Virus record (IMG/VR): IMGVR_UViG_3300028045_000007
Coordinates: 62,001 to 126,000 of that record
DNA length: 64,000 bases
Reading direction: 5' to 3' (one strand)
Source of the DNA: a virus
The notes beneath the pieces are model-generated. The model ran no database searches and was not told the DNA's origin. It saw only the letters and a list, made by a program, of their open reading frames with translations. Shown here in pieces: positions 1,502-25,161 of this stretch; the stretch's first letter is position 1; the number at the start of each line of letters is the position of its first letter. Both the position numbers and the translations under genes were made by a program.

Positions 1502-1537
1502 GCGGCGAGGTCTCGGGGGTGATCTCGCCGCTCTTTC
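1502..1537 (+). terminator. Intrinsic terminator after the tail tube gene
   Basis: An 11-bp stem (GCGGCGAGGTC pairing with GATCTCGCCGC, one G-U pair) encloses an 8-base loop and is followed by TCTTTC. It starts 14 bases after the stop of the tail tube-like gene. The short, interrupted T run suggests partial termination. Confidence 0.7.
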
Positions 1538-1579
1538 TACCCCCAGGTGCAAGGTACAATTCGTTTTGCGTACACAGTA

Positions 1580-1603
1580 GGGGCACCATCGTGCCCCTTT
1601 TTT
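1580..1603 (+). terminator. Second intrinsic terminator, directly before the next start codon
   Basis: A 7-bp G/C-rich stem (GGGGCAC/GTGCCCC) with the loop CATC is followed by six T residues. It lies 43 bases after the first hairpin and ends three bases before the ATG at 1607. The pair together would sharply lower read-through from the tail tube gene into the minor tail genes. Confidence 0.75.
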
Positions 1604-1606
1604 AGT

Positions 1607-3342: not shown

Positions 3343-3344
3343 GA

Positions 3345-4737: not shown

Positions 4738-7700
4738 ATGGGTAAAGTACAACTAGAAGCCGTCCTGAAGCTCGTTGACGTTCAGATCAACCCGCAGGTA
4801 TTCCAGAAGATCAGCCAGTCTGTGGCCGGTATGCCGCCAGCCCTGGGTAAGTCCAGCGATGCACTCAAGAAAACCGGCGTACATGCCGACACGCTCAACA
4901 AGAAGCTCAGGGGCACAAAAGAAGTAATCAACGCAAACGAGCGTGCAGCACGCCTGTTCTTGCGTCGTATGGCCCAGTTTGCCATCCTGCTCCCCACGTT
5001 CGCAACGCTGAACCGTGCTATCCAGGGCGGCGTGAAGTTCCTGTTTGATTTCGACAGTGCCCTGAGGGACATTGTACGTATTGACATTGGTAATTTGAAG
5101 GACCGTATGGAAGAGGTGGGCGATGCCGCCTTGGCAACCGCTGTCAAATATGGAGTGACAGGCACAGAGGTTTTGCGTGCAACCCGTATCTTCAAGCAGG
5201 CTGGTTTTACAATCGAGGAGTCTCAAGCGAAGGCAGAGGCGGCCATTCTTGCCACGCAGATCTCTACGTTGACTTCTGCTCAGGCGACCGAAGTGTTCAT
5301 TGCTGCCCAGAAGCAGTTTGGAGCAGAGGGTCAGAACTCTATTTCAGTTCTAGATAAACTCGCTAAGGTTGAAGACCTTGCTGCCGTAAACGCTTCCGAT
5401 GTTGCCGATGCCTTCCGTACTGGTGGTAACGCTCTTGCTGAATTCTCGAAAAGCATTGATGATTCTGTTGGTATCATTGCTGCCCTTAGAGAGCAGAGTC
5501 GTAAGTCCGGTCGTGAAATTGGTACGTTCCTGAAGACCATTCAAACTCGTATGTTTGCTGCCGGTGAAGCTCGTAGCTCTCTTGAGTCGCTTGGTGTCAC
5601 GGTAGAGAATTTAGATGGCTCGTTGCGTCCAACGCTTAGTGTATTAGACGATCTTAAAGATAAATTCGATGGTCTAACGCAAGCACAGAGGACAAATGCC
5701 GCTAAGTCCATCGCTGGTATTCGTCAGTTCGAATCGCTGTTGGCTGTCTTGAACTCATTAGAACGTGCAAACGAGTTATCGGCGGCATCTAGCAGGGCTG
5801 CCGGTACCGCCGATGAGAAACGTGTTATTACTGATGCTAAACTAGAACGTCAGGTTGGTAAGCTTATTGCTCAAGGACAAGCGTTTGCAGAAGCTATGGG
5901 TGATGCTGGATTAGAAGATACGTTAGCGTCTGCATTAAAAATGGCTGAAAGGCTTCTTTTAGTATTTACTTCTTTCTCTAATGTTCTTAGTGATATTGGC
6001 GGAAGTATTGTTCCATTATTAGCACTTAGCGGCATTACCCTTGGTCGTAGCGTATTCGGCCTTGGCGGTGGAGGTAAGCCAGGAGGCAAACCAGGAGATG
6101 CCACAAAGGGTAATGTTCAAAAGCCAGGACTTGACAAGAACTTTATTGGCCCGTTAAACAAAACACAATCTCAAATTGCTTCTTTCGGTACACAAATGAA
6201 GCGTGCTGGTTCTATTGTGGCCGATAGTACCAAAATTACCGCCATGAGAGTTGCTCAGGGTAGACAATTGGTTACTATTGGTTCTACAGAGATCACTGGT
6301 GTTAAAGCAAGGGCAGCAGCACATAAACAACTTACTGCTGCTATTAAGCAAAATATATCCGCCATCAAGGCTTCTAGTGCTGCACGCACAGCTCAAGGTG
6401 GTGGGTTAAAAGGAGCCCTGGGTGGAGCCGCCGGAACCGCACTCTTTACTCTTGGTGGTGCAACTATTCCTGCGTTGTTTGAAAGTATAGCCAAGAGGTT
6501 ACGTTCTTTTGATAATAACATTGCCAATCTCGGTGCAGAGACTCTAGACGCGAGTAGTAGTACTCTATCGATGGCCGCTCAGTTTGCTGTACTTGGAGGT
6601 AAGGCTTCTGCGATAGCGGGGGCCGTTGGTGCCGTATCAAACGCTATGCCCAAGATCTTAAATGCAATTGATGACGAGTTTGTTGCTCGCAAAGAACTTA
6701 AAAATACGATCAAAAATCAGCAGAAGGAAGAGGGCATTGCTGCCAAGCTTGGGTCTAGAAGTCAAGCCGGAACGGCTGTTGCTAGTAAGCTGTTTGGTTC
6801 TTTTAGTGCGGCAGCAGAACGTGCTGGCACTGAAGGCGGACAAGCTCTTCATAGGGAATTACAAGCTGCCTTCGAGGAAATAGGCAAGGACTTTGGCACT
6901 ACCGGGCAAGATTTTGCAAAGACGTTTCTAACTCCAGTTACAAACGAATTGGGCGGAATTGTTGATAGTAATGCTATTGGTATCGACACACTAAAACAGC
7001 TTAAAACAGAAATTTCTGATGCTTCTGGTTTAACCGGTATCGATATTGCCATTGTTGCACACAAAGAACTCCTCAAATCAATTGCCGAAGAAAATGGTAC
7101 TCTGAAGGAATATGATCGTCTTATCAAGGGCGTCTCTGATGGCACCTTACGTTCCAATGAATCACTTAGTAGTATGTTGGACGTTCTCGGCAAGGGCACC
7201 ATTAAGTTCAATGAATTTACTCTTGGGGCAACGTCTGTCAATAAGTCCTTAAGTGAATTAGGAAAAATAAGTAAGCTTCAGGGTGCTATCGATAGTTTCC
7301 GTACATTAGGACTAGAATTAGATCTTGCTAAACTTGGTCCGGAAGCTTTGGCTGACTCTGTTGTTAGAATGCAGCAAGAATTACTACTGTCAGAACGAGA
7401 GTTTGGTAATACGAGCAAAAGACTAGGAAAAGATATCGATGATCTTACTGGGCACATCAGTGAACTTGGTATCTTTAGTAAAGGTGCAGAGCTTTTTCAA
7501 GCCGCTCAGGAAGGTTTGGATTCTATGGATTCAAGCGAAATCGCAGCGTTCAATCAATTTATGAAGGAACAGCCACCAGCGGTGCGTGAGACCATAGCAG
7601 AACTTTTGAAATTACGCGAACAACAACGTCAAGCCGAACTTGATTTTCAGAATCAGCAAAATGCATTACAGGGTGAAATGATCGCTCGTCGCAAGGCAAT

Positions 7701-9921
7701 GTTTGAGACTGAAGCACAGGCGGCACAAAACGCTTTTGAGTCTACACGTAGGTTTTCTGCTGAGCTAGAAAAGTTTGGTGACGCCGTTACAACCGACGTG
7801 TTGTCCCAGTTCCAGAACATTGGACTTGGTGACGTTGAGGATGTTCTTGCCGGTACTTCAGACCTTAGTGGTGCTCTTCAACAAATGATCATAAATGCGT
7901 TTGATCCTATCTCGCAGGCCGAGCAGGATCTAGCCAACGTGACAGCTACCACCCAAGCCGAACTTGATATTTTAGCAAAGCGGTTAGGTATTGTTACTCA
8001 AAAGTTGTCCGACGAAGCAAACGCGGCAAACGCCGCATCGTTGACTGCCCAAAAACATGCCATCACGCTTGATATAGAGAAAACTATTCAATCTGGTGCA
8101 ATCAGTGCCACAGAAGCCAAGATCAAAATATTAGAATCCGAGAAGGACGCAGCAGAAGATGCCGCCGAAGCCGAGAAAAAGCGTTTTGAGTTACTCGAAA
8201 AGCTAGCGGAAGCCTCTCGCGATTTCGAAAACGAGCTACGAGATGTACGCGATGGGTTTGAAGAATTTAGTAAAGACAAGATCGCAGATCTACTCAAAAA
8301 AGAGACAGATGTTCGCAGCGAATTAAAGGACGCTCAAAAAGATGTTTTAAGTAGTACTACTGAACTTGCCGATGCGTACAATGCCCTTGGCAAAGCTCAA
8401 TTGGAGTTCAATGGGGCCATTGCTGAGGCACAGCTAAAGAGCAATCTACTAGCACGCGACATTGCTACACTGACTGGTGGTCTTGTAACATTTCAAAGCA
8501 AGCTATCTTCACTCAACAACGCTTATCGTGACGTACTAGGTAACTCTAACATCACGCTACAGAAGCGTATTGAGCTTGAGCGTCAACTTGCCGACGAGAC
8601 CTTGGCGTTCTTGCAGCAGGCAAGTAGTGAAATTACTCAAGCTGGTATTGGTATCTTTGGTCAGTCCAGTCAAGAGAACCAAGCACTCGGCCAGGGAATT
8701 GCTGGATTACAACATGTTGCCGACCAGTTAGGTGGTTCGTTCGAAGGGTTCTTGAATATGTCATCTGGAGACTTCTCTGCTGTTAGCGAAACGTTACTGG
8801 GGCTACCGACAGAATTCCGTCAGCAAATGCTTAGTGCGTTATCATCTCTGCCAAGCACCATGAATATTGGAGGATTCAATGTTGATCAATTGACACAGGC
8901 TCTCGGTCAGGTTGGTGCCGGTGTTGCACCTGACGCTGGCTTGCCGTCCATCGAAGAATTGAATGGACAGCAGGTTGAGCAGTTGACCAAGCTTCAAGAG
9001 CTTGCTTTGCAAGATGCTCAACTACAGTTTAGTCAAGTGATTGCTGCCCAACAACAAGTTGCTGCCGCACAAGAGGCCGCCGATGCTGCTCAGATTCTAC
9101 AAGAGCGTGCCAAAGAAAATCTTGTTGCGGTTCGTGATGCTGTACTAGAAGAGAAGGCAGTCCTTGATTTTGCTAATGAACAGCGTAATGAGCTACTTAA
9201 TGCCGTGATTGCTGCCGACGACAAGAACACGCTCCTCATGATTGAGAGAGAGGCTCAGGCGTTTGCGGATCAAAATGCCGCCTTTAGTAAAATCGGAGAC
9301 AATATTGTTACGGGTATTGCTAGTGCCATTGGTTCTAGATTGGCTGTTCTAAATGTTGCCGCACAGTCGAAGGGATATATCCCCAACTTCAGTAGTGGCA
9401 ACTTGAGTCCTGGCGAAGCAGCCGGTGTGCTTCGTGCAGCTTCTCGTGAGAAGCGAGCTATGCCCCCCGGAGCCGGTCTTGCGGTAGCTAATACTAGTGA
9501 AGCCATTATCCCCATGCGTAGCACTGGTTTTATTCCCAACTTCCAAAAAGGTAATGTCTCTGGCGACAGCAATACATCCGAGCTATTGGCCGAAGTCGTC
9601 CGTCAATTAAACGAACTCAACGATACGTCTGATGTGATCAGTTCTAGTAATACTCAAATTCAAAGCAACACTACGGGTGATGCTAAGGATGGAGCCGCTG
9701 GTGGTTCTCAGGATGTTACTATCACCTTACAGACAAACCAGAACAATACCGTTTCTATTACGGGACTTGAGTCGTTACGTGAAGAGATTGCTACAGTTGT
9801 GAGGGGAGCCGCAACCGAACAAGTGGATAAACAACTGGAAGCACTACTGGAAGAGCTAGATAGTGTTATCGTTGCTCTACAAGAGCGTGGTCTATTGAGT
9901 TCGTTTGGTCAACCGAGGTAA
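4738..9921 (+). CDS. Tape measure protein
   Basis: At 1727 residues this is the longest protein in the window and has the tape measure pattern: Ala/Gln/Glu-rich helices with long coiled coils (notably about residues 950-1230 and 1440-1530) and a phage-tail minor-protein (TP901-type) core at about residues 110-350, including TRIFKQAGFTIEE and REQSRKSGREIGTFLKTIQT. Hydrophobic Gly/Ala-rich stretches near residues 420-440 and 550-640 could contact a membrane during DNA ejection. The C-terminus carries two copies of a G(Y/F)IPNF motif about 50 residues apart (near 1545 and 1595) within Gly/Ser-rich sequence. The usual rule of about 0.15 nm per residue predicts a tail near 260 nm. A ribosome-binding site (CAGGAGG) precedes the ATG, which abuts the previous stop. 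Confidence 0.92.
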   Translation: MGKVQLEAVLKLVDVQINPQVFQKISQSVAGMPPALGKSSDALKKTGVHADTLNKKLRGTKEVINANERAARLFLRRMAQFAILLPTFATLNRAIQGGVKFLFDFDSALRDIVRIDIGNLKDRMEEVGDAALATAVKYGVTGTEVLRATRIFKQAGFTIEESQAKAEAAILATQISTLTSAQATEVFIAAQKQFGAEGQNSISVLDKLAKVEDLAAVNASDVADAFRTGGNALAEFSKSIDDSVGIIAALREQSRKSGREIGTFLKTIQTRMFAAGEARSSLESLGVTVENLDGSLRPTLSVLDDLKDKFDGLTQAQRTNAAKSIAGIRQFESLLAVLNSLERANELSAASSRAAGTADEKRVITDAKLERQVGKLIAQGQAFAEAMGDAGLEDTLASALKMAERLLLVFTSFSNVLSDIGGSIVPLLALSGITLGRSVFGLGGGGKPGGKPGDATKGNVQKPGLDKNFIGPLNKTQSQIASFGTQMKRAGSIVADSTKITAMRVAQGRQLVTIGSTEITGVKARAAAHKQLTAAIKQNISAIKASSAARTAQGGGLKGALGGAAGTALFTLGGATIPALFESIAKRLRSFDNNIANLGAETLDASSSTLSMAAQFAVLGGKASAIAGAVGAVSNAMPKILNAIDDEFVARKELKNTIKNQQKEEGIAAKLGSRSQAGTAVASKLFGSFSAAAERAGTEGGQALHRELQAAFEEIGKDFGTTGQDFAKTFLTPVTNELGGIVDSNAIGIDTLKQLKTEISDASGLTGIDIAIVAHKELLKSIAEENGTLKEYDRLIKGVSDGTLRSNESLSSMLDVLGKGTIKFNEFTLGATSVNKSLSELGKISKLQGAIDSFRTLGLELDLAKLGPEALADSVVRMQQELLLSEREFGNTSKRLGKDIDDLTGHISELGIFSKGAELFQAAQEGLDSMDSSEIAAFNQFMKEQPPAVRETIAELLKLREQQRQAELDFQNQQNALQGEMIARRKAMFETEAQAAQNAFESTRRFSAELEKFGDAVTTDVLSQFQNIGLGDVEDVLAGTSDLSGALQQMIINAFDPISQAEQDLANVTATTQAELDILAKRLGIVTQKLSDEANAANAASLTAQKHAITLDIEKTIQSGAISATEAKIKILESEKDAAEDAAEAEKKRFELLEKLAEASRDFENELRDVRDGFEEFSKDKIADLLKKETDVRSELKDAQKDVLSSTTELADAYNALGKAQLEFNGAIAEAQLKSNLLARDIATLTGGLVTFQSKLSSLNNAYRDVLGNSNITLQKRIELERQLADETLAFLQQASSEITQAGIGIFGQSSQENQALGQGIAGLQHVADQLGGSFEGFLNMSSGDFSAVSETLLGLPTEFRQQMLSALSSLPSTMNIGGFNVDQLTQALGQVGAGVAPDAGLPSIEELNGQQVEQLTKLQELALQDAQLQFSQVIAAQQQVAAAQEAADAAQILQERAKENLVAVRDAVLEEKAVLDFANEQRNELLNAVIAADDKNTLLMIEREAQAFADQNAAFSKIGDNIVTGIASAIGSRLAVLNVAAQSKGYIPNFSSGNLSPGEAAGVLRAASREKRAMPPGAGLAVANTSEAIIPMRSTGFIPNFQKGNVSGDSNTSELLAEVVRQLNELNDTSDVISSSNTQIQSNTTGDAKDGAAGGSQDVTITLQTNQNNTVSITGLESLREEIATVVRGAATEQVDKQLEALLEELDSVIVALQERGLLSSFGQPR

Positions 9922-9924
9922 GCC

Positions 9925-11993: not shown

Positions 11994-12619
11994 GCGATCT
12001 CGGTCCCCAGTATAACGAGAGGTCGATTCTCGCTAAGTTTTTCAACCATCAAAGACATGGCTTTTTGATAGAGGTGGGTGCCGCTGATGGTATCACACAT
12101 TCGCATACCGCGTTTATGTTTGACGAGTGGGAATGGCGTGGCGTGTTGATTGAACCACATCCAGAATTTTTCTCTGCACTACAGGCACGTTACGAAAACA
12201 ATCCAGATGTACTAACGCTCAACGGAGGCATTCGTGAAGTTCCGGGCAAGCACAGATTCTACATGAATGGGCAAATCTCTCGTTTTCTAGATGATCAAAA
12301 GATAGGTGAGGGATTTAGTAAGGTCCCCGGGTACGAGGGCCGTATAGATGTAGAGTGTACTACACTGACAGACGTGTGTGAATCATTAGGAGTACCTCGG
12401 GAGTTTGATTTCCTTACTGTAGATGCTGAGGAGACAGACATAGAGGTCTTGAGCACGCTAGACTGGGAGCGTTGGCAACCACGCTTGGTATGTATTGAGC
12501 ACAGCATGCCATTACCTGTCATGAATGGATTTTTCAGTGAAAGGTCGTATGTGCAGCTTGAAAGAAACACCGGCAACACATTCTTTCATCGTATTGAAGC
12601 GAAGGTGGAAGACTTATGA
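11990..12619 (+). CDS. FkbM-family SAM-dependent methyltransferase
   Basis: This 209-residue protein has the Rossmann methyltransferase start FLIEVGAADGITHSHT (about residues 25-40), followed by VLIEPHPEFF, the strand and acidic residue that bind the SAM ribose, and the FkbM-type motif FDFLTVDAEETDIEVL near residue 145. The family commonly O-methylates sugars or polyketides. It is translationally coupled (ATGA) inside the tail gene cluster, between two paralogous structural genes, which is unusual. A second FkbM-type gene lies in the glycan island at 56289. Acting on a glycan carried by the virion would fit, but the substrate is inference. Confidence 0.8.
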   Translation: MSDLGPQYNERSILAKFFNHQRHGFLIEVGAADGITHSHTAFMFDEWEWRGVLIEPHPEFFSALQARYENNPDVLTLNGGIREVPGKHRFYMNGQISRFLDDQKIGEGFSKVPGYEGRIDVECTTLTDVCESLGVPREFDFLTVDAEETDIEVLSTLDWERWQPRLVCIEHSMPLPVMNGFFSERSYVQLERNTGNTFFHRIEAKVEDL

Positions 12620-12804
12620 ATACTGACCACGAAAACATTGAGCTACGCAAGATCGGCGAGCCCGAGCCTGACTCTCTACCCAGGGGTATCAAGCTCATAA
12701 TAGTAGATAGGCACACGGTCTTTGTACGTCGTGTTCTTGGACGTTTCATACCGGTAACAGAATCAGAACAGGAGGAGCTTCACAGGAAGCATATTGTATC
12801 ATGA
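12616..12804 (+). CDS. Small hypothetical protein, 62 aa
   Basis: A short charged protein translationally coupled to the methyltransferase gene by an ATGA overlap. A beta-hairpin-like middle (IKLIIVDRHTVFVRRVLG) is followed by an acidic helix. No family is recognised. It is accepted as a gene because it fills the space between two coding genes in the coupled, overlapping style of this genome. Confidence 0.5.
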   Translation: MNTDHENIELRKIGEPEPDSLPRGIKLIIVDRHTVFVRRVLGRFIPVTESEQEELHRKHIVS

Positions 12805-12823
12805 ATCAACTGGAGCTATTACA

Positions 12824-13477
12824 ATGCCTGCTGGCGACTTCCCCATAGTACGTATCTTTGAGTGGGATACAACAGAGGTAGCGTCCCCGGTCGGTGACCG
12901 TACGACGCCCGGGGGAACGTTTGCCTTCAAACAAATGGTATCGCTGGGCTGTGCGAGTGCTGACCCTCTTGACCCGGCAACATCCGGAACGCTGGTATTC
13001 CCTGGTACGCAGTTTGACCACACGTCATCGCCCTATGCTTCAGAGTTAGCGTCAACGCCCGTAGCCATCACATTCAATATCGCAGTGAGCGGTACGGCTA
13101 TTTCTGACATTAAACTATATCTCATAGATGATTCTGCTTTTCAAGCGAGTGTAGACGAGGGGCTCGATAGAGCCTTCATGCAGTATGCTCCTAGCGGATC
13201 AATTTGGAAATCGAACTTCACACTACCGTCTGGGTCTATAGAGCGTATTCCCACTACAGTACCAAGCGTACAAAACATCAGGCGTCAAGATGGTTCTAAC
13301 GCACTCGTTGGTACTGATGACACCAATTCGTCCGAATTCGTATATCTGAATATTGTGGTGCCTCTTGGGGCACCCCTGGGGACATTTGGAGTGTGTGGTT
13401 CTGGGTTATTGAGGCTTGGATTAGTTTTTAATTTTTGGAACAACGATTTTATTCTGGAGTTTGGAGATGTCGGATAA
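12824..13477 (+). CDS. Small beta-rich tail protein, paralogue B
   Basis: This 217-residue protein starts at the ATG at 12824, preceded by CTGGAGCT. A TTG at 12794 would add ten residues but has no ribosome-binding site. It is Ser/Pro/Gly-rich with repeated PSGS motifs, and its C-terminal 35 residues align with those of the 11433 gene product, so it is a second copy of that tail protein family. It overlaps the downstream HNH endonuclease gene by 11 bases. It is probably exposed at the tail tip. Confidence 0.55.
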   Translation: MPAGDFPIVRIFEWDTTEVASPVGDRTTPGGTFAFKQMVSLGCASADPLDPATSGTLVFPGTQFDHTSSPYASELASTPVAITFNIAVSGTAISDIKLYLIDDSAFQASVDEGLDRAFMQYAPSGSIWKSNFTLPSGSIERIPTTVPSVQNIRRQDGSNALVGTDDTNSSEFVYLNIVVPLGAPLGTFGVCGSGLLRLGLVFNFWNNDFILEFGDVG

Positions 13478-14000
13478 AACCTGTACTAAGTGTCAAACCT
13501 CTAAAATATATGACGACTTCCACAGGGATCGCACCCGTAAAGATGGATACTTTCCCCAATGTAAGACATGCACGAGGCTTTATCGTCAAAGTGAACACGG
13601 GGCAAGGTTACACCGAGAAGGAAACCTACGTTTTCAACAAACACCAAAAGGTAAAGCGTGTCTTCGTAGGGCACAAAGCAAGTATCAACAGTCACCTAAA
13701 GGCAGACTGATGTATCAACAGGCGGCCAGACGACGATTAGCACGTATTGCTGATGCTGACATGTCGCTTACCGATGATGACATACGCCGTGTTCACGAGA
13801 AGTTTAATCATAAATGCTTCAATTGCGGCAATACAGAACGTCTAGAGATTGATCACCATTATCCTTTGTCTATGGGATTTGGCCTTACTGAAGACAACGC
13901 AGTGCTGTTGTGTAGGTCTTGCAATGCGTCCAAAGGAAACAGGATGCCAGAGGATTTTTACCCCGAAGAGAAACTTAGAGTGCTGGTTAGTGTAATATAA
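13467..14000 (+). CDS. HNH endonuclease, probably a homing-type enzyme
   Basis: This 177-residue protein carries an N-terminal Cys4 zinc site (CTKCQTSK...CKTC) followed by a basic region with two copies of an S/TPKG motif. The C-terminal HNH domain has CFNCGN, LEIDHHYPLS (the first His pair) and NAVLLCRSCNASKGN, the usual Cys-coordinated beta-beta-alpha-metal fold. The ATG at 13467 follows TGGAG; a TTG six bases earlier is also in frame. Freestanding HNH genes in phages usually promote their own spread into related genomes. Its insertion between tail genes, overlapping one of them, fits that habit. A DNA-packaging role is less likely because no terminase is nearby. Confidence 0.85.
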   Translation: MSDKTCTKCQTSKIYDDFHRDRTRKDGYFPQCKTCTRLYRQSEHGARLHREGNLRFQQTPKGKACLRRAQSKYQQSPKGRLMYQQAARRRLARIADADMSLTDDDIRRVHEKFNHKCFNCGNTERLEIDHHYPLSMGFGLTEDNAVLLCRSCNASKGNRMPEDFYPEEKLRVLVSVI

Positions 14001-14345: not shown

Positions 14346-14807
14346 ATGGTTAAAGCTACCTTTGAACACGAGGGCAATTCTGGCCTTCTAGCGATCGTTA
14401 CACACTTCGGTCGCACAGTCGAGATCCAATGCGAGAAGCAAACGGACGAGAGTTTTCGTATGGGTGGAACGGCTGTCAACGAAGTTGTTGTATATGAGGG
14501 ACTCATCATGAAGTTCCCCACGCAGTTCCGAGCTTTCCGTACTCCAGACGACTATTTCGAGGAAACCGGCATCCTGTCAGACGAAGAATGGACAGAGGCC
14601 AACCGTCATTGCTATGTCACTGAGTACTACTCAATCGACATGGAAGGTAAGAGACCTGGCTGGTTCATCAGTCACGAGCCCATCAAAGACGCGAACTACT
14701 TGTTTGTGAATCTGGACGTGTTAGATGGCGGTGGTAACGTTATCAAGAGATATCGTGTCTCTCCTTTTACGGGCGAGTATAGAGTAATGGAGTACATAAA
14801 TGGCTGA
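14346..14807 (+). CDS. Hypothetical protein of the tail module, 153 aa
   Basis: The ATG at 14346 is preceded by CGGAG at a good distance. The in-frame ATG at 14304 lies within the tRNA-like leader and lacks a ribosome-binding site. The protein alternates beta strands and short acidic loops and is not Ser-Gly-rich like its neighbours. It overlaps the start of the large lectin-domain gene by eight bases, so it may be a chaperone or attachment partner for that protein. I recognise no family. Confidence 0.5.
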   Translation: MVKATFEHEGNSGLLAIVTHFGRTVEIQCEKQTDESFRMGGTAVNEVVVYEGLIMKFPTQFRAFRTPDDYFEETGILSDEEWTEANRHCYVTEYYSIDMEGKRPGWFISHEPIKDANYLFVNLDVLDGGGNVIKRYRVSPFTGEYRVMEYING

Positions 14808-17800
14808 CTTGATCAATGATGGTTCGTTGGTAGGTTTCTGGCCCCTACTAGAGCCAAGTGGAGCGTTTGTTTACAAGAATTACTCACCCGCGTATGGTAA
14901 GCACCCGAGTGGTATTTCGTTTGATATGCACGTTGCCGTTGCAGACCTTCAATACGATGAAGAGCATAGTTCATATTGGCCCGGTGGTACAGAATTTACC
15001 AATATTTCGTCTGGCAACTTGATACGCGGGTATTGCGTCCAGGGACACTGGAAACTAAAAAGCACTGGATCTCCGCCACTGTCTAAATATTTGACGCTTG
15101 GGTGTGGGGGTAAAACACAAGTACAGCAATGTCTGGCTCCCGCAGTTGCCCAGAGCGGCTTTACTGTTGGTGCTTGGCTGTACCCAAACTCTCAGGGATT
15201 TTTGGAGGCATATACTGAGTCTGCCAGCATTGGCAGTGCGGCTAATGATTGGAATACAATGAACGCTCGTGCCCACACTATGTTGGGGCAGTTCAGAGCA
15301 TATACCGGCAATTCCGGTTGGCTGATGGGTATTTCTGGTAATCCAGCTCGTAGCACTCAGTTCAATTTTGAACCCGAAGCTGGCGATACTTTGCAGGCGT
15401 TTGTTTCTATGGAGAAGGCAAATGCTGCGGTGAGTACTGGGTTTTTGGAGACCCCCATTGAATCCGGTTGCTATACGCATATTGCTTTTAGTTATCGCTA
15501 TGTAGATGGCACCAACAATGAGATCGTACTATATAAAAATGGTCGTGTCACCGCCAGTGGAACCACCACTGACGATTTGACGTTGGATAATACCAATCTA
15601 ACGGGTGCTAGCAATCATCGCCCCTTTGCTATTGGTGCCACCGATTCAGAAACCGCAACGAACTACACTCCGTATTATTACAGGACTGGTGGATGGGGCA
15701 ATCTCATGTCTGGTGTCTACTATTTCCGTCGCGTGTTGCATGAAGGGGAGCTGCAAGAAATGCATGAACGTGGCGGACTTGTCGCCCATGATTCTGCTCT
15801 TGCACCCTCACAAGAAGTACTTCTCTCCGATCCAGACCTAGTAGCGTACCACACATTTACAGAGCCGGGCTTCGGTGACATTTCTAACAATCATAGTCCA
15901 CTCGTAGGCGTTCATGATATGGGCTATAGGGGGGCAGGAAAGCTACAAGTACCCGGTCCATATGGCGAAGGTATGACATATGGCGATGGAGCAAGTACCT
16001 ATGGATATTTGGCCGCTTCTAGTGGCACATGTCTTGATGCACTAAGTCAAGGTAGTTGGACCATTAGTTTTCTTGTAGCTCCACCTCACGCAGCCAGTCG
16101 CAGCAATAACATATTTTGTTCATGGGGCTCTGTTACAACCTCAACGTCGGCGACCGCCATGCCAGCGGCTACACCTCTCACGAATCCAACTGCTGGACTT
16201 TGTTTCAGTGTTAGTGGTGTTGCCACTAGGCAGGTTTGCATCATTGAAGTTTATTCGACTGGCGATGTTGAAGATACGGACAATATTTTAGTCTTTAGTT
16301 TAGATAGCACATTGGACTATTTCCATGGTGCCTGTACACATATTGCTCTTGCTTATGACGACAGCACCAAGGGCATTGCCGCGTATGCTGATGGCGTACA
16401 GTGCGGAAGTGGTACCTTTACGAACTCCCTCACCGATCAACTATTGTCAGTGACCAGCAAGGGCTTTCCACTTATGTGGACCAATGGCATAAAAGACGAT
16501 TTGACCACCAGCTATCGCGGCGTACATGCGACCAGTTTTCAAGACGGTGACTTGGGGTCGATTGTTGTTTGTAAGCGAGCACTGTTGCCAGCGGAGATAC
16601 GCGGCATTGCACTTAGCGGCATCAATTACACAAGTCTATATCGCACACGCCATGATCCTCGCATAGTTGGGTATTGGCCAGCAAGCGACTTTAATATTGA
16701 TGATATTTTAGTAGAAGACGAAGCACGTTGTTGGGGTGAACTAGACGGTCACTTGGTACGTGGTGACAGTGATCCCCGTAACGATCAATGGTATTTGTTC
16801 AATCGTCAAAATGATGGTACCGTGCGATACAATCAGTTTGGTAGCCGTGATTTGCCGCCCGAACTAGCAAGCTACGGTAATCTTGGTATAACGTCTGGTA
16901 CATTTTCTCCACGCGGTGCCGGGGGAGGCACAGTAAATCTTGCTGACGCCGTAGACAATCGATCATCTATTACTAACTTGACTTCAAGATATAAGCCATA
17001 TTTTGAAGAAAGCGATGACATGCCACAAAATGTTGGTGCTGATTATTTGTTGTCATACGAAGTCACTCCGAGTGGAGATATTCCCAAGACACTTGGTGCT
17101 TATGCTAGTACTCTTACTGCACCAATGCATAACTCTCTCTTGCATGAGTATGCTTATGATGGTAACAAAGATCAACGTTCATTCTTAACAACCGAGCTTG
17201 CAGAGCAGGGGTCTGGCGTAACATTGGTGTGGGTTGGATATTCGGACGTGCCGCTAGTATCTGGCAATCTCGCATATGGAGTACCCAGTCGTGTAGTACT
17301 CCATACACGATTCACATTACCTCAAAACGTTGATGGATTTTCTGCTGGTACCACACCTCTCGATATCAGTTTATGGATCAATGGCGAACTGATACAGCGT
17401 CGCCCCTCAACTTCAATCGATGCTAAGATATGGAGCGACCAAGCCCCTGATGGTTCTGCCGATGCAGACATATTGCATTTTGGTGGCATTGCTGGCAAAC
17501 CATCCTATATTTCTTTGTATACCACGTCTGATTCTGGACTAGGAGAAATCTATCTTCGTAACATGTTCATTATGAAGGGGATCTTCTTAAGCGGCGAGGT
17601 TGAAGCTTTAGCAGCTAGTGGCATTCAATCCCCCGCGATTGGTGGATTTACAGATTCTCAGTCAAAAACCCAAGTAACAATTGCTGACTCGAATTTAGTC
17701 GGATACTATAGATTCAATGGATTCGCGGGTGGTGGATCTGGCACGACAGACTTAAGTTCCAATGGTAATCATTTGTTTGGAGCCCAACAAAGCCTCGTTG

Positions 17801-19749
17801 AAAACGGTGAAGGAACATTGAGTCGGGGTGCATTCGATTTACATGTCTTCCCTGGGCCTCGCGAGTCGTCCGATCTTGGGGTGCAGTGCAGTGGTTTTAC
17901 ATATGCAAGCCAAGAGCCGCCCGCTACTGCTGGTGGTCTCATGCCTCCCTTTATGATGTCTGGTGTTCGTTTCGAAAAACCACGAGAAGATTTTTCTATT
18001 GGTTTCTTGTATATCAAAAAGAATGCGACCGCTACTGAATTTGATACTATTATTGCTTATGGCATGGTCCCGGCTGCCATAACTGACGAAACCAACGACA
18101 ATGATAGAGGTTGGGCGATTGGTATGGACTCCAGTGACAACATGCGACTAGTGATGTCGCTTGCACATACAGATGATGGTACCGGCGAAGGTAGTATGTA
18201 TCTCAATACTACTAGTAGACCGATATGTTCCGGCCAAACACTCTGTGGTATGTTCGAAGCTGCCCAATGGTATGATGACGAACGCGATTTTGATCGATAT
18301 CGCCATGGTACACAACGTGTACCGAGACCAGATTTTTGGAGTCATTATTGCTGGACGTATAGTGCGGCCGCAAAAAAACTATCGTGTTATGTGAATGGGG
18401 CTTTGGTTGATCAGAAAGTGCTGAGTTATGGCATATATCCACAAACTCCCAATGATCCAAAAGCTAGGTATCTCACAATGTACCAACACACGCGAGACCC
18501 TTGGGTACAGGGTGATGATATAACTAATGATCACGAAGGCTCCATGACCGATCTTTGTTATTTCGACAAGACACTAACACAAGAAGAGATTAGATACATC
18601 GCATTGAACGGCATCGACAGTGCCGTTGGCACCCCCGTGAGCGGACTAACTGGCGGCTATGTTCGCGGACAAGATACTGGTTCTGGCCTTATGGGTGGTA
18701 TGTCACGAGGAGTTGGACCTGTTTCCGGATTGTTTGGTGGATATATGCCGGGCGGTGCAGTGGCAAGCGGTTTGTTCGGTGGCTTTGTATCTGGCGTTGT
18801 CTTTGGTGATGGCACCATCGGTGGCTTCGTGCGTGGCCTAGACACCGTTTCTGGTATTGTTGCCGGTTATATTCGTGGCGTTGATGTTGGCTCCGGAATG
18901 ATCGCTGGCTACATTCGTGGCCAGGAAGTTGGTTCCGGACTATTTGGTGGCCTTGTTCTCGGTGCCCAACCCGTCAGTGGCCTGTTTGGTGGCTTTATTA
19001 GGGCGGCAGACGTAGGTAGCGGACTACTCGGCGGGTTTATGCTTGGTGGTCTAGCTGGTAACATGCATTTTGATGCTGGATTTAATCTTAGTGTATTGGC
19101 TGCGGAAGATTTTGATGCACGGCTTGAGGTTGCCAAAACAATGTCAGCCGACTTTGATGCCAAGCTTATTATCTTCCAAAATGAGCAGCCTCCCCTTGTA
19201 GAGATTCTGATTCCTGGCACGACCGTGACGGGCTTGTCAGGACCATTCAATCAGTATTTGATTGGTAGTGCGTCCGGACAACAGGGCAAGGCTATCACAC
19301 AAACCAAGTGGCATTTTGGAGATTTCTCGCCACCCGAAAGCGTTAGCGTTAGTGGCATTAGTTACTATCCGATACAGCATAATTTCGTTAACGATGGCTA
19401 TTATATTGTGCGATTTGAAGCCATAGATTCTGATGGGCTGCACGCTTCAGCGACAAGGATTTTAAACGCTACAAATGGTGCTGACCCAGTAGTCATTAGT
19501 ATGTCTGGCGTACCACGTTCTGGTAATGCGGGATTAGAGGTGGACTTTGTTACTAACGTCGATATTCTACCACCGAGCGTTACTATTTTGTCACAACTGT
19601 TGCATTTTGACGACGGACAAACTACAATGGCTTTCCATCCAACGCACGTGTACACCGAACCAGGAACATACAAACCGATTTGGTGTGTACGGGATTCACG
19701 AGGTATGATTTGGTGCGATAGCCTTGAGGCGGGCAGTGATGTCCTTTAG
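14800..19749 (+). CDS. Large multi-domain adhesin with LamG-type lectin domains, Gly-rich repeats and PKD-like domains
   Basis: This 1649-residue protein is probably a tail adhesin or fibre. Four concanavalin-A/LamG-like units start near residues 9, 343, 617 and 962, each opening with a strand such as LVGFWPL, LVAYHTF, IVGYWPA or LVGYYRF and followed by the ALYKNG/VNGALV type strands of laminin-G folds. Residues 1281-1420 are ten consecutive 14-residue repeats of the SGLFGGFVRGxDxG type. Two PKD-like beta domains (about 1465-1560 and 1565-1645; WHFGDFSPPES, LLHFDDGQTTM) close the protein. LamG and PKD domains commonly bind carbohydrate or mediate surface contacts, so host-surface glycan recognition is likely. 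It begins within the end of the previous gene. Confidence 0.75.
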   Translation: MADLINDGSLVGFWPLLEPSGAFVYKNYSPAYGKHPSGISFDMHVAVADLQYDEEHSSYWPGGTEFTNISSGNLIRGYCVQGHWKLKSTGSPPLSKYLTLGCGGKTQVQQCLAPAVAQSGFTVGAWLYPNSQGFLEAYTESASIGSAANDWNTMNARAHTMLGQFRAYTGNSGWLMGISGNPARSTQFNFEPEAGDTLQAFVSMEKANAAVSTGFLETPIESGCYTHIAFSYRYVDGTNNEIVLYKNGRVTASGTTTDDLTLDNTNLTGASNHRPFAIGATDSETATNYTPYYYRTGGWGNLMSGVYYFRRVLHEGELQEMHERGGLVAHDSALAPSQEVLLSDPDLVAYHTFTEPGFGDISNNHSPLVGVHDMGYRGAGKLQVPGPYGEGMTYGDGASTYGYLAASSGTCLDALSQGSWTISFLVAPPHAASRSNNIFCSWGSVTTSTSATAMPAATPLTNPTAGLCFSVSGVATRQVCIIEVYSTGDVEDTDNILVFSLDSTLDYFHGACTHIALAYDDSTKGIAAYADGVQCGSGTFTNSLTDQLLSVTSKGFPLMWTNGIKDDLTTSYRGVHATSFQDGDLGSIVVCKRALLPAEIRGIALSGINYTSLYRTRHDPRIVGYWPASDFNIDDILVEDEARCWGELDGHLVRGDSDPRNDQWYLFNRQNDGTVRYNQFGSRDLPPELASYGNLGITSGTFSPRGAGGGTVNLADAVDNRSSITNLTSRYKPYFEESDDMPQNVGADYLLSYEVTPSGDIPKTLGAYASTLTAPMHNSLLHEYAYDGNKDQRSFLTTELAEQGSGVTLVWVGYSDVPLVSGNLAYGVPSRVVLHTRFTLPQNVDGFSAGTTPLDISLWINGELIQRRPSTSIDAKIWSDQAPDGSADADILHFGGIAGKPSYISLYTTSDSGLGEIYLRNMFIMKGIFLSGEVEALAASGIQSPAIGGFTDSQSKTQVTIADSNLVGYYRFNGFAGGGSGTTDLSSNGNHLFGAQQSLVENGEGTLSRGAFDLHVFPGPRESSDLGVQCSGFTYASQEPPATAGGLMPPFMMSGVRFEKPREDFSIGFLYIKKNATATEFDTIIAYGMVPAAITDETNDNDRGWAIGMDSSDNMRLVMSLAHTDDGTGEGSMYLNTTSRPICSGQTLCGMFEAAQWYDDERDFDRYRHGTQRVPRPDFWSHYCWTYSAAAKKLSCYVNGALVDQKVLSYGIYPQTPNDPKARYLTMYQHTRDPWVQGDDITNDHEGSMTDLCYFDKTLTQEEIRYIALNGIDSAVGTPVSGLTGGYVRGQDTGSGLMGGMSRGVGPVSGLFGGYMPGGAVASGLFGGFVSGVVFGDGTIGGFVRGLDTVSGIVAGYIRGVDVGSGMIAGYIRGQEVGSGLFGGLVLGAQPVSGLFGGFIRAADVGSGLLGGFMLGGLAGNMHFDAGFNLSVLAAEDFDARLEVAKTMSADFDAKLIIFQNEQPPLVEILIPGTTVTGLSGPFNQYLIGSASGQQGKAITQTKWHFGDFSPPESVSVSGISYYPIQHNFVNDGYYIVRFEAIDSDGLHASATRILNATNGADPVVISMSGVPRSGNAGLEVDFVTNVDILPPSVTILSQLLHFDDGQTTMAFHPTHVYTEPGTYKPIWCVRDSRGMIWCDSLEAGSDVL
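18640..19059 (+). repeat. Ten tandem 42-bp units encoding 14-residue Gly-rich repeats
   Basis: Ten consecutive in-frame units of exactly 42 bp each encode S/D-G-(L/I/M/T)-x-G/A-G-(F/Y/L)-x-x-(G/A)-x-x-x-x. The period is strictly kept (for example SGLFGGYMPGGAVA, SGIVAGYIRGVDVG, SGLFGGFIRAADVG), while the DNA sequence of the units has diverged. Constant length with diverged sequence points to selection on a regular structural rise, such as a glycine-rich helical sandwich or a triple-stranded shaft. Confidence 0.9.
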
Positions 19750-19758
19750 GAGTAAGTC

Positions 19759-22700
19759 ATGAGTATCATTGTATCAGACGGCATTGTTGTTAGTGGCGTA
19801 GGAGTACCTCTAAATGGTATTCCGTGGCCATCAGGTCAGTTTGACTACAGGGAACCGGGCTCACAACTGAGTGCGTTCTTGTCGTCGGTCAATGCAACGT
19901 TTGGGTTTGGCATGACGCCACACTCATGTCAGACCGAATGGGTGCCATATGGTAATGCCGGTGACTTTCACGGGGCCTCTGGTCAGTTAGCCAATATTGG
20001 AAGCCCCCTTGAAATATTTGTTGGGGATTTCTTCTTTCGTGGAAAAATTACGCATTCAGACTATACTAGTAGTGCTGGCGGCACAGTGGTCAGCGTTACC
20101 ATCGAAGACGACAGACGAACGCTCCGTAAAGCGAAGATCCACACCGAAGACCTTGGCGAAGACGCACCTAGCGGCGTGATTTCTGTAGCACGTGCATATC
20201 GTCTACTGAATGGACTACTAGATGTTGATGGCGACCCGAATGATGTCAATATTAAGGAGTATAGACGCATCCTTCAGTACGGTGGTACATACAGTCAAAT
20301 CCTTGCAGCCATTGATTATCATTTCATCGAGGGGCTGTGTGCCGTATCAGTATATGAGTTGCCGACCGTTGAGCAGCTTGAAACCAATATTGGGGGCACA
20401 ATTGAGTCGATCCGTTTTCAGTTCAATCTAACCAATCTTGATGAGGCACTGTCTCGCATCCTACTAGACACTGGCTATGACTGGTACTGGAATATGGATG
20501 CCCAACACGTTAATCTCATCAATAAGAAAGCCACGTTTGACATTACTGAGGCGGCCATCCTTGATCTTGTGTCCGAGTTTGGCAGTGCTAGTGGACTCAA
20601 CGAGACTAAGCAATTAGGGTACGGACAGGACGTTGTTCCGGACCCCACACGATTCCGAGTTCTCGGCGGACACCAAGAGGGGTTTGTCAACTCTCATATT
20701 TTAAGTCCCATTGATGGTATTGACACATTTGGTTTAGATGGATACGCTAGTAGGACTGTCAAAGATTCTGATGTACAAATTGTATTCACGCCCGCATGGT
20801 CTAATTTAACTGTTGGCTTTTTTGACAACGGCGGCTATTATCGTACGTATATCCCCACAGAGAAGGAACTTCAATTAGCGTTAGCCGGTATTGAACAGTG
20901 GACTTATTTTAAGGTCTATCAAACCTCGTCTCTCGGTGCTGATCCTGCTGGATATGGCTTACCAAGCGACGCGGGACACGTTGCAGCACAGCATGCTACA
21001 TTCCAGAGTCGTCTTGATCCGGTTATGCCCCTGGCTGCTATGGGGGCCGGTAGCGAGTCTTCTGGTATTCGCATTATTAGCAACCGTCGCGACGAAGACC
21101 AGAACTGGGTGCTTAACTTCTACAGTCGTATTCGTGATCATGCAACACGTCACTATGGTCGTTCATACGTGGCGGAAAACCTACTGTTTACTGAGGCGTC
21201 TGGCCTCTTTAGACTTGTTAGTGCTGCGTGGGCCAACATCGAGAATCAAGTTGATGGGCACGCCCTGTCGGCATCTGGCGTCTCTGGTTCTGGCGTTTAC
21301 ATTGACGACTATACGATTAATCGAGATCTTGGACCTATCAGTCCATTTATTTCGGATGACTTTCGTGTTCAAGCCCACTGTCGTATGCCAGCCGGTACGG
21401 TGTATGGCCCACAGGGAGACAGTAATCCAGCGAGCTTTGGCAATTGGACCGAAGATGCTCCTCCATTCAACCCAACGGGCGATGGCGATCATTATATTCC
21501 GGTGCAACTTACCATTGTTGGTAATCGTGTTATCAACCCCCGCAGTAACGAATTATACTCTTTTGAGGCATATCCCGAGGGAACCATCTGGTGTCAGCTA
21601 CCTATTAATGCTGGACCATCTGACGGCATGGTAAATGATAATGTCATCTCTCAACTGTCAACTTTGGTTTCTACTAATATCAAGCTGGATTCCGAGGGTC
21701 TAACAGATATCATTAATCCGGCCAGAGTATTGAATGTTTACAATTCGCTGTCTGGCGTAGCTATTCCCGTTGAGGCACGTAGTCGTTATGGACAGTCATA
21801 TCCGAATCAGTGGGTGCTTGGAGACATGCACTATGAACGGGACGAGGACATTCAGTTAGACGACCAGTTTGTACCGTGGGCATTCTCTCCGGTTGGCAAC
21901 CAGTCATCTCTACAGATTATGGCCGACAGGGCCGTGCGTCGCGTTGAGGGTAAAATTGTCCCGAAAAGCTCGTCGCGATATGCAGACTTCCAGCAAGTTG
22001 GTTTGCCTCTACTGTCATTTGATGCGTTTGCACAACAGGACATTGGTCCGTCTGGTCTTTATGGTGAGATCAGTCATGGTGTTAGTGAACTGAATATTTC
22101 ATTTGGTGCCGAAGGCTTTACTAGTCGCTATAAGATTCAATCTTACTTCCCCAAGTTTGGTCGCGAAGCACCGCTTGGTGAGCGTGTGCGTGCTGTCGTG
22201 AATGGAATCTTGAATCCAATTGACTTCACTGATCTTTCGCTTTTGGATCCTAATCCTGGTGGTCCAACCAATCCAATGTTGCCTGGAGATCCCTATGTAC
22301 CGCCGCTGTTCTTCGATAGCGAAGAGCGAGCGGTACGTGTTACGATCACAGAGACTAACAATGTGTTTACACTCGATAGTACGCCGGGCGACGAAGAGGA
22401 CGAACGATACCGAGGCATAGATAGACATGGCTATACAAAGCCACCCCGTTATTTTGGTTCGACTAAGCCAGATTTTGCTGATGGTGCAATCTGTATTGAT
22501 GGTTTCTTAAACATCACCGACGAAGCCATGTATCATACGGATGAGTTCCGTCTTCCTGGTGGCAATACTGTTTTAAGATACTTTACTGAAGGGCGTCCTT
22601 TTGGCAATGGTACTATTGTAGAGGTTGAGCGTGCGAACGTGGCCGATCCCACAACATATGATGTCACTATTGTTGATCCAACGGCACTGGCGGGTGGTAC

Positions 22701-23124
22701 CGAACGTGCCGTATTTGGCGTTGAAGTACTCAATGGTTCTGTGACCCTGGGTGACAAGACGACATTGGCGGTTCAGGGAGACGCACCCGTATCTCCCGGT
22801 GCAAATGATGGGACTATTTTTATTAATGGCACCATTAATGATACTGCCGGTGTAATTCCGGTTGAAATTATCAACGTAGGGTTGCTAGGAACGGAAGATG
22901 CCGTTGCTACGTGCAGACTACTTGATTATGCTGGAAATATTTTACCAGACGCTTCCGGCGTTCATTACCACAGTGTTGTACCGCTCCCCTTTAGGCAATT
23001 TGCTGCTCCTGGTGATCGTGGATATCTTGCTACGTTAGCGGTGCCGAGTGGTGAATATGGACAAACCGCAATGGTTAGCTTTATAGAGATTGTGAAGCCT
23101 GCACTCTTCAGATATAACGGATAA
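19759..23124 (+). CDS. Large baseplate hub/tail-tip-like protein
   Basis: This 1121-residue protein starts after TAGGAG. Its N-terminal third resembles tail hub proteins of the gpD/gp27/gp44 type: a beta-barrel with GSPLEIFVGDFFFRGKI near residue 75-95, then helices and ALSRILLDTGYDWYWNMD around residue 230, a segment common in hub proteins that process or dock the central spike. The rest is beta-rich, with Ser-Gly motifs (ASGVSGSGVYIDD) and a proline-rich segment near residues 830-860 that leads to a C-terminal carbohydrate-binding-like region. No lysozyme or peptidase motif is seen. Hub or tail-tip assignment rests on fold impression and position. Confidence 0.5.
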   Translation: MSIIVSDGIVVSGVGVPLNGIPWPSGQFDYREPGSQLSAFLSSVNATFGFGMTPHSCQTEWVPYGNAGDFHGASGQLANIGSPLEIFVGDFFFRGKITHSDYTSSAGGTVVSVTIEDDRRTLRKAKIHTEDLGEDAPSGVISVARAYRLLNGLLDVDGDPNDVNIKEYRRILQYGGTYSQILAAIDYHFIEGLCAVSVYELPTVEQLETNIGGTIESIRFQFNLTNLDEALSRILLDTGYDWYWNMDAQHVNLINKKATFDITEAAILDLVSEFGSASGLNETKQLGYGQDVVPDPTRFRVLGGHQEGFVNSHILSPIDGIDTFGLDGYASRTVKDSDVQIVFTPAWSNLTVGFFDNGGYYRTYIPTEKELQLALAGIEQWTYFKVYQTSSLGADPAGYGLPSDAGHVAAQHATFQSRLDPVMPLAAMGAGSESSGIRIISNRRDEDQNWVLNFYSRIRDHATRHYGRSYVAENLLFTEASGLFRLVSAAWANIENQVDGHALSASGVSGSGVYIDDYTINRDLGPISPFISDDFRVQAHCRMPAGTVYGPQGDSNPASFGNWTEDAPPFNPTGDGDHYIPVQLTIVGNRVINPRSNELYSFEAYPEGTIWCQLPINAGPSDGMVNDNVISQLSTLVSTNIKLDSEGLTDIINPARVLNVYNSLSGVAIPVEARSRYGQSYPNQWVLGDMHYERDEDIQLDDQFVPWAFSPVGNQSSLQIMADRAVRRVEGKIVPKSSSRYADFQQVGLPLLSFDAFAQQDIGPSGLYGEISHGVSELNISFGAEGFTSRYKIQSYFPKFGREAPLGERVRAVVNGILNPIDFTDLSLLDPNPGGPTNPMLPGDPYVPPLFFDSEERAVRVTITETNNVFTLDSTPGDEEDERYRGIDRHGYTKPPRYFGSTKPDFADGAICIDGFLNITDEAMYHTDEFRLPGGNTVLRYFTEGRPFGNGTIVEVERANVADPTTYDVTIVDPTALAGGTERAVFGVEVLNGSVTLGDKTTLAVQGDAPVSPGANDGTIFINGTINDTAGVIPVEIINVGLLGTEDAVATCRLLDYAGNILPDASGVHYHSVVPLPFRQFAAPGDRGYLATLAVPSGEYGQTAMVSFIEIVKPALFRYNG

Positions 23125-23127
23125 AAT

Positions 23128-25161
23128 ATGGTAATGCAATCTGGTATTCCGCCCTTCGATTATGCATATGGCAATGGCCCCTTTAGCGTCGCGGACGCTT
23201 ATGGTGGTGGAGGTTGTGTACTTGGTCCATCTGGTGCATTATTAGAACAGGCACAGTTTGCACTGATCGCCGAGCGTCGTAGGTGGACGGGTGAAAACAC
23301 TTATGTGCGTCCTTATTTATATCCGTTTCATCTATATACACATATGGATATTACGCCCTCTGGTCCGTACGAACCGAAGGCAGATGGGTCAACACTAGGT
23401 AACTCTTTAAACCCCGGTGCTTTTATATTTGTTGATTACTTTTATGAACTTCGTGGTGCCATGGACGAGTTGTTTGGTGATATGGCAGACGATTCTGACT
23501 ACCCTTCAGAAACGTTGCGGGCGTCGTGGTTACAGGCGTTGTATCCGCATAGTCCAAGTGGATTTTATGACGCACCAGAGGGTGGAGGCGATTATGGCAA
23601 TTATCTTCATCGTATCCCATCAGAGGGTGGCGAGATAGCAATGTCGCCAGATGTCCTTGGTTCATCCGGTGTACTCTATGACATTGACTTTGGCGAGGTA
23701 ATGTTTAATCCATACCCACAAATTGGGCACTACATCAATACTTCGGCACATGGGCCGGGCGATGGTGCAAATGCAGCATTTTACATTACGGCTTCGCCGT
23801 TTTTTCCAGCGTTTCAAAAAACGAATGGCGATTTAGTTGATGTCACTGCCAATGATCCCGTAGCTGTAACATCACTGTGTGATACGACACAGACGGCTCT
23901 TGGGCGTGTGCGTCTAGATGGTTATATGCTTACTAGTGACTCGGAATACTATCTAGGCAAGAAGAGTCAAGTACATGATCGTGTACAGGATTTTACTTAC
24001 CATAGTGCTGGTATTCGACAAATTGGTAGTTCAATTGAAGACATGCCGTTTAGTCGTGTGTTTTTAACGCCCACCGCACAGGCATCTGGCGTGTATACTA
24101 TTGCCGTACGTAACCCACATGGTGTCGTTGCAAACACCACGATTGAATCTGGCATTGTGAGTAACTGGCCACCCGAACGACTAGCGTGGCCCGCACATAA
24201 TTATGAAAACGATTCCACACTTGCATTCAATGCTGGTTACGAAGTTTTTAATGATGCAATCTGGATGACAGATCAGTCACCCGAATGTTCGTCATGGCCA
24301 CACTCGGCAACATATGCTTCTGGTTTAGCTATTATGTCACCATATACTGGTCATAAGATGTGGGTGCGTCACGCCGAACTTGTTAATGATCATAAAGGTC
24401 ACAATTGGCCGACACAGATAGGTTTAGAAAGAATCAGTAATGACAATATCATTCGTGTTTCTCCCGAACGAGAAGCATTGGGCACTGGCGATTGGGACAT
24501 TAAAGTACATTTTTTACAGTATGATGACCAATTGAATTTTCTTTCTGAAATATCTTCGGATGCATTTGGATCTTTTACCACGCACAATATTACGTTTGTA
24601 GACATGTTTTATGATGGCTCTTACTTATATTGTACTAATAGCCTTTCTCAAGGTGCCGATATTTATAAGTTTGACGACACTACATTTACCTATGTTGACA
24701 AATATTCTGTTTCTGTTGACGATGTTCTAGGATTAACGGATTTACGTGGTTGTCACACCACTGTCGGTAACTATTTTTATTCTGGAACCTCTGGCGTATC
24801 AACACCAATGTCACAGAGTGGTATTTACCCTTGGTGGATCGATAGTCACAGTGCTGATCCGTCAGCTCAGGAACACGGCGTTATTGGCATTGGTGCCATG
24901 AAGAACATTGACGGTTCCTCCATTGTAGGTTATAAAAAATACGCAAACATCAAAGATATGTTTGAAGTAACGGGGGGTACACATATACAAAATGGTATAT
25001 ATGTATTCATGCAATGGAACAATAGCACAACCGACGTAAAACTTTATCTATTACGTATTGTAGAAAAAACTGATTACTGGGAGGTAGTGGCGACGTATTA
25101 TATCGACAATGATCTCAATACGTACTATCTTCAGTATGAAGGACTGCATATGGACATTTAG
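23128..25161 (+). CDS. Tail-associated protein, possible beta-propeller
   Basis: Not clearly recognised; 677 residues, aromatic- and Gly-rich, with repeated PSG/ASG motifs as in the other tail proteins. The C-terminal third (about residues 440-670) has successive strands of the form FLSEISSDAF..., ITFVDMFYDGSYLYCTN, IYKFDDTTFTYVDKYSV, reminiscent of propeller blades. It follows the hub-like gene with a 3-base gap and only a weak ribosome-binding site, so expression may depend on re-initiation. Likely an exposed tail or receptor-binding component. Confidence 0.5.
   Translation: MVMQSGIPPFDYAYGNGPFSVADAYGGGGCVLGPSGALLEQAQFALIAERRRWTGENTYVRPYLYPFHLYTHMDITPSGPYEPKADGSTLGNSLNPGAFIFVDYFYELRGAMDELFGDMADDSDYPSETLRASWLQALYPHSPSGFYDAPEGGGDYGNYLHRIPSEGGEIAMSPDVLGSSGVLYDIDFGEVMFNPYPQIGHYINTSAHGPGDGANAAFYITASPFFPAFQKTNGDLVDVTANDPVAVTSLCDTTQTALGRVRLDGYMLTSDSEYYLGKKSQVHDRVQDFTYHSAGIRQIGSSIEDMPFSRVFLTPTAQASGVYTIAVRNPHGVVANTTIESGIVSNWPPERLAWPAHNYENDSTLAFNAGYEVFNDAIWMTDQSPECSSWPHSATYASGLAIMSPYTGHKMWVRHAELVNDHKGHNWPTQIGLERISNDNIIRVSPEREALGTGDWDIKVHFLQYDDQLNFLSEISSDAFGSFTTHNITFVDMFYDGSYLYCTNSLSQGADIYKFDDTTFTYVDKYSVSVDDVLGLTDLRGCHTTVGNYFYSGTSGVSTPMSQSGIYPWWIDSHSADPSAQEHGVIGIGAMKNIDGSSIVGYKKYANIKDMFEVTGGTHIQNGIYVFMQWNNSTTDVKLYLLRIVEKTDYWEVVATYYIDNDLNTYYLQYEGLHMDI

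Follow-up and report, generated by a model that had tools for sequence, protein, structure and literature searches.

A modular adhesin gene among the tail genes

The window analyzed here is a 64 kb stretch of a 154,408 bp virus record. Downstream of the tape-measure gene it carries one large ORF, in which four LamG-type domains are followed by ten SG units, three FDA units and two PKD-type domains (Table 1). Pfam was searched with the whole protein and then with pieces of it, the latter adding LamG domains 1 and 2 and the second PKD stretch. LamG domains 4 and 1 score above the curated cut-off of the LamG/ConA-like family (PF13385), and the PKD match (PF18911/PF00801) reaches 42.8 bits against a cut-off of 27, in two stretches. 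LamG domain 3, for which Pfam gave no match, begins with the same DPRIVGYWPASDF start as the other three.

Table 1. Parts of the adhesin ORF and landmark tail genes in the 64 kb window
Feature	Position	Strand	Evidence
Adhesin ORF, 1649 aa	14800..19749	+	ORF call and translation; Pfam Laminin_G_3 (5e-17) and PKD_4 (5.5e-11)
LamG-type domain 1 (residues ~1-330)	14800..15789	+	Laminin_G_3, E=2.1e-6, 28.4 bits (cut-off 27.6)
LamG-type domain 2 (residues ~331-610)	15790..16629	+	Laminin_G_3, E=2.1e-5, 25.1 bits, slightly under the cut-off
Probable LamG-type domain 3 (residues ~611-950)	16630..17649	+	Start motif and position
LamG-type domain 4 (residues ~951-1275)	17650..18624	+	Laminin_G_3 at residues 1164-1264, 5e-17, 62.9 bits
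Ten SG units, consensus S-G-x-[IFLV]-G-G-[YFW]-[IMV]-x-G-x-[D]-x-[GA]	18640..19059	+	Translation, shuffle test, array comparison
Three 14-aa FDA units, xxxFDAxLxIxxxx, same register	19060..19185	+	3 x 14 in 26/26 arrays
PKD-type domain 1 (residues ~1463-1560)	19186..19479	+	Second PKD stretch in Pfam piece search; AlphaFold mostly confident
PKD domain 2 (residues ~1561-1649)	19480..19746	+	Pfam match at residues 1570-1638, 5.5e-11
Conserved neighbor, 1121 aa, probable tail hub/baseplate protein	19759..23124	+	Role suggested by position
Tail tape-measure protein	4738..9921	+	Places the adhesin within the tail gene cluster

The genes starting at 9925, 11433, 12794, 14304 and 19759 keep the same order in the relatives whose loci reach that far. 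The 1121-aa protein is 59-75% identical in nine relatives and 48% in L198, and its gene immediately follows the adhesin gene or lies close to it wherever enough flank is available. The LamG and PKD domains and this fixed place between tail genes support the assignment of the product as a tail adhesin, made earlier from the sequence alone, and suggest that the protein is located in the virion. An FkbM-type methyltransferase gene (11990-12619, Pfam 6.8e-17) within the tail cluster looks like an insertion, as the corresponding gap in relative L004 is only ~180 nt.

These relatives come from IMG/VR contigs, apart from one whose contig belongs to a Hydrogenophaga MAG and gives a weak hint of the host. 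When the named phages were searched by tblastn with the full-length adhesin, its array by itself, two divergent homologues and idealized unit repeats, essentially no clear relative was retrieved, the single match being MT835675 at E=0.1.

The 14-residue repeat and its variation among relatives

The SG units (residues 1281-1420) are ten uninterrupted, in-frame repeats of exactly 42 bp, as described by the sequence-only reading; unit 5 opens with DG instead of SG. Amino acid identity at a lag of 14 is 0.468 in the array, compared with a maximum of 0.284 over lags of 5-30 when its residues were shuffled 20,000 times. The same reading held that the period is kept despite divergence of the DNA, and this proved correct: mean identity between the units is 47% in amino acids and 53% in DNA, and inter-unit identity is 36% at third codon positions compared with 62% at positions 1 and 2. 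Thus, the DNA of the array has diverged nearly to saturation while the protein pattern has been held, indicating that the units are old. Tandem Repeats Finder did not detect the array, as is expected for units so diverged.

The period extends in exact register past 19059 into the three FDA units (xxxFDAxLxI), which had been missed before. They read NMHFDAGFNLSVLA, AEDFDARLEVAKTM and SADFDAKLIIFQNE, and bring the array to thirteen 14-residue repeats. The data did not support a single hydrophobic phase shared by SG and FDA units (the correlation is 0.21 at phase 0 and 0.25 at others), nor a resemblance of the FDA units to the DLPSRL-type 14-residue repeats of PBSX-like prophages.

For comparison, we assembled 26 distinct arrays with 221 SG units from uncultured phage contigs. 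A scan for two consecutive units yielded mostly chance matches and was filtered with a profile; the arrays of L023, L168 and L198, which were parsed in part, were completed by hand and checked against the sequence. The unit length is 14 aa in 209 of the 221 units (95%) and is conserved down to ~25% overall identity among the arrays. The other 12 units measure 15-18 aa, none is shorter, and their extra residues always follow position 10. Across the 202 distinct 14-aa units the core reads, in percent, S89 G97 x [I50 F15 L13 V12] G91 G90 [Y52 F29 W6] [I37 M19 V15 L11] x G84; an aromatic residue (Y/F/W) occupies position 7 in 87%, aliphatic residues are conserved at positions 3, 4 and 8, and positions 9 and 11-13 are variable. 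The conserved core and the placement of the insertions indicate that the first ten residues are held constant and that the turn is the site of length change.

The sequence-only reading had also proposed a comparison of copy number among related phages, which gave a range of 7 to 10 SG units: 7 in 12 arrays, 10 in another 12, and 8 and 9 in one each. Since the deep branches (L133, L195, L043, L044, L168 and L198) have 7 units, this number is likely to be ancestral and 10 to be a gain in the group of the window; the base tree is resolved too poorly for counting such events. Change in steps of three, with three units making one turn, was rejected, as 8 and 9 occur and the 7/10 pattern looks like the outcome of few events. 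In the 10-unit arrays, the best match of 96 of the 110 units is the same-numbered unit of another phage, indicating that the units are old and position-specific. In L084 and L181, the neighboring units 3 and 4, SGIIGGYGFSALDV and SGVIGGYGFSALDV, hardly differ from each other, and the longer form that unit 4 usually takes is missing; this pair is a recent unit duplication or conversion.

In two ortholog pairs, dN/dS of the array is 0.079/1.093 (0.07) and 0.050/1.162 (0.04), a sign of strongly purifying selection. With the unit length conserved across the 26 arrays, these ratios argue for the earlier proposal that selection acts on a regular structure.

Two further observations touch on the repeat. 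The SG dipeptide is over-represented in the tail and structural genes (14800-25161 and 69-14000), with 98 observed against 61 expected and V, L or I mostly following; in the other genes tested it does not rank with the most enriched dipeptides. The SG that opens each unit may belong to this more general tendency. In a distant phage (contig IMGVR_UViG_3300034152_000478, loci L107 and L128), one ORF has degenerate GG[YF] units with FDA-like and PKD-like stretches, and an adjoining separate ORF combines LamG with GG[YF] units, so that this contig possibly has two such adhesins.

Conflict between LamG heads and the rest of the protein

All-pairs identity rises along the protein, from 39-47% in the LamG domains through 59% in the SG units and 64% in the FDA units to 70% and 74% in the PKD domains. 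LamG domain 2 is the most variable domain (39%), PKD domain 1 has a constant length of 98 aa among the relatives, and PKD domain 2 is the most conserved part. In two pairs of relatives, L005/L006 and L010/L049, the LamG block is only 30-53% identical in amino acids, compared with 80-98% for the array, FDA units and PKD domains. The DNA of both pairs aligns upstream of the gene and over its first 33-50 codons, which are conserved at the start of LamG domain 1, while the rest of that domain belongs to the variable head and the LamG block mostly does not align. The sequences align again from 99 and 48 nt ahead of the array, respectively, and onward through the downstream genes.

Trees of the two parts are in conflict. 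In head trees L005 groups with L010, together with the window, and L006 with L049, whereas stem trees join L005 with L006 and L010 with L049; all but one of these groupings have high support. AU tests, for groups picked after the pairwise identities had been inspected, reject the alternative groupings (p=2.3e-4 for the stem and 5.7e-28 for the head). The switch falls at residues ~1260-1300, that is, at the border of LamG domain 4 and the array and reaching into units 1-2. Recombination is the simplest account, because rapid divergence alone does not explain why the L010 head is closer to the head of the window than to that of L049, its sister in the stem. The identity contrast and the tree conflict thus indicate that the LamG heads have been exchanged, the junctions lying where the array begins, and the conflict places the protein among adhesins whose variable part recombines against a constant part.

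Genes resembling homing endonucleases lie close by. An HNH-type endonuclease gene (13461-14000) upstream of the adhesin resembles an ORF in L004 (3228-3842), and in L006 an ORF (9143-9754) whose GYIDGDG motif is LAGLIDADG-like lies between the adhesin and hub genes. Homing endonucleases encoded on either side of the adhesin could favor the exchange of heads.

We regard the border between head and stem as the most useful result of this study. The sharp junction shows a way in which large uncultured phages may change targets, namely by exchange of complete head sets, and structural studies could naturally divide the protein at this point.

The array as a probable stem

We favor, with a probability of roughly 0.6, the reading that the repeats form a structural stem in a tail adhesin with exchangeable LamG heads and a conserved PKD base. 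The four N-terminal LamG-type domains, ConA-like jelly rolls, would make up the variable head and probably bind glycans on the host surface; related phages would swap whole sets of them by recombination at the border of LamG domain 4 and the array. The PKD pair would be the conserved base, probably facing the virion beside the hub protein. The 10 + 3 units between them would serve as a constant, regularly spaced connector, probably rich in β-structure and either β-solenoid-like or an oligomeric β shaft. The 10-residue core, SGx[phi]GG[YFW][phi]xG, would be packed, with residues 11-14 forming a turn that alone tolerates insertions. A folded stem is favored by the fixed unit length, the purifying selection and the conservation of the aromatic and aliphatic positions. 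The fibre shaft considered in the sequence-only reading thus gains support as a constant stem from the head and stem identities, the DNA junctions and the trees, its fold being a prediction.

Structure prediction qualifies this picture. AlphaFold monomer models were made of a 200-aa stretch of the array alone and, with 27 sequences, of residues 955-1649 (695 aa). The longer model gives pLDDT of ~60-90 in most blocks of LamG domain 4 and ~75-88 in most blocks of both PKD domains, compared with 24-37 in the array and FDA units; the shorter has a mean of ~41. In the low-confidence array of the 695-aa model, short bridges appear at 14-residue intervals, which hints weakly at a solenoid. Foldseek with this model retrieved ConA-like jelly rolls, many of them in phage proteins annotated as LamG (BFVD), matches that reflect the jelly-roll part only; the neurotoxin binding domains among them have this widespread fold as well and are no sign of toxicity.

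The earlier reading had named a predicted disordered linker and wide variation in repeat length between relatives as outcomes that would speak against a regular structure. Repeat length does not vary widely, but the monomer prediction is of very low confidence in the array, and this also fits a flexible linker or a structure formed only in the oligomer. Also counting against a stem, copy number shifts by up to three units, implying that an exact stem length is not essential, and a search by sequence for a solved relative found none. The array could accordingly be an unstructured glycine-rich spacer that gives the LamG heads mobility and whose repeats arose by slippage, as its glycine content of 33%, the very low AlphaFold confidence, the range of 7-10 copies and the recent unit duplication in L084/L181 would suggest. 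We nevertheless find this unlikely, given the 14-aa length of 95% of the units, the 87% aromatic occupancy of position 7, the aliphatics at positions 3, 4 and 8, dN/dS of 0.04-0.07 and the unit-specific identity conserved between phages. Disordered linkers rarely combine fixed length, conserved aromatics, low dN/dS and unit identity.

Known repeat folds offer partial parallels to the proposed stem. The heads of trimeric autotransporters form a left-handed parallel β-roll of 14-residue repeats with the canonical sequence GxNSVAIGAxSxAx (PMC9543794). The array resembles them in repeat length, in variation of number by whole units, in a regular small/aliphatic pattern and in the 14-residue spacing of bridges in the low-confidence models. 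Such a YadA-type roll is possible as an analogous fold. As the actual structure of the array, a trimeric roll of this kind is quite unlikely: the SGx[phi]GG[YFW][phi]xG pattern with its aromatic at position 7 differs from the canonical one, the array matches no Pfam profile even at E<=10, YadA heads included, and no such heads in PDB by sequence, and a phage is not an autotransporter context. The adenovirus fibre shaft, a triple β-spiral of 15-residue repeats (PMC7248032), can be likened to the predicted stem in that short β repeats and turns build a shaft of variable number bearing a receptor-binding head. The array has a glycine-rich repeat of 14 instead of 15 residues, shows no sequence similarity to the spiral that we could find and is modeled at pLDDT 24-37; a β-spiral shaft of this kind is possible by analogy.

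Glycine-rich repeated motifs occur in the T-even type adhesin gp38; the sequence-only reading had suggested a polyglycine-type sandwich. In gp38 of S16 and PP01, the polyglycine-II (PGII) sandwich carries hypervariable receptor loops at the tip (PMC12892980); applied to the array, each unit would be a PGII helix and the loops would bind the receptor. The fold is thus known in phage adhesins, and glycine-rich units alternate here with more variable residues. We consider it improbable, since glycine recurs in the array at a spacing of 4 (0.57) rather than the 3 of PGII (0.20), bulky residues occupy positions 3, 4, 7 and 8, and hypervariable loops between the motifs were not seen, the array being more conserved than the LamG head and thus the constant part of the protein. 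Least probable, and very much so, are the membrane-active turns of the same reading, or a segment inserting into the membrane for DNA entry. The arrays are mildly hydrophobic (GRAVY 0.36-0.92), but the best 19-residue stretch reaches a hydropathy of 1.48 in the window and stays below 1.6 in 26 of 27 arrays, each unit has about one charged residue, and no helical periodicity was found in the arrays.

The repeat has no match in Pfam, PHROG, NCBIfam or any convincing PDB family; the PDB sequence search returned only Cag19 (8aiw) at E=0.02 and one match at 0.89, both judged to be compositional. Multi-LamG tail proteins of uncultured Caudovirales and cyanophages likewise combine jelly-roll, lectin-like domains within a phage structural protein, and their Foldseek/BFVD matches align over the LamG part only; no named phage record was found to carry the 14-aa arrays of SG and FDA units. 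A conserved repeat family previously absent from Pfam, PHROGs and NCBIfam is thereby defined. More tentatively, and with doubt prevailing, the SG/FDA array may represent an undescribed β-solenoid or oligomeric shaft fold that is widespread in a group of uncultured phages and doubles as a recombination joint for swapping four-domain lectin heads.

Adhesins built of modules, with a variable tip, are familiar. The array protein fits this known kind, with constant stem and variable heads, and known principles are not overturned; what emerges is a division of labor between a fixed stem and base and exchangeable lectin-like heads.

Other genes of the window deserve mention. Next to the hub gene, a 677-aa protein (23128-25161) is only 22-36% identical among relatives, far more variable than the products of the surrounding genes, and may be a second receptor-binding protein. 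Several glycosyltransferase genes of group 1 and family 2 (37823-46484) possibly serve surface glycosylation, and a sigma-70 region 2 protein (37176-37826) possibly late transcription. The window also encodes a full-length bacterial-type DNA polymerase III α subunit with a PHP domain (33254-36562), whose counterparts in unannotated phage contigs from human faeces are ~33-34% identical to it.
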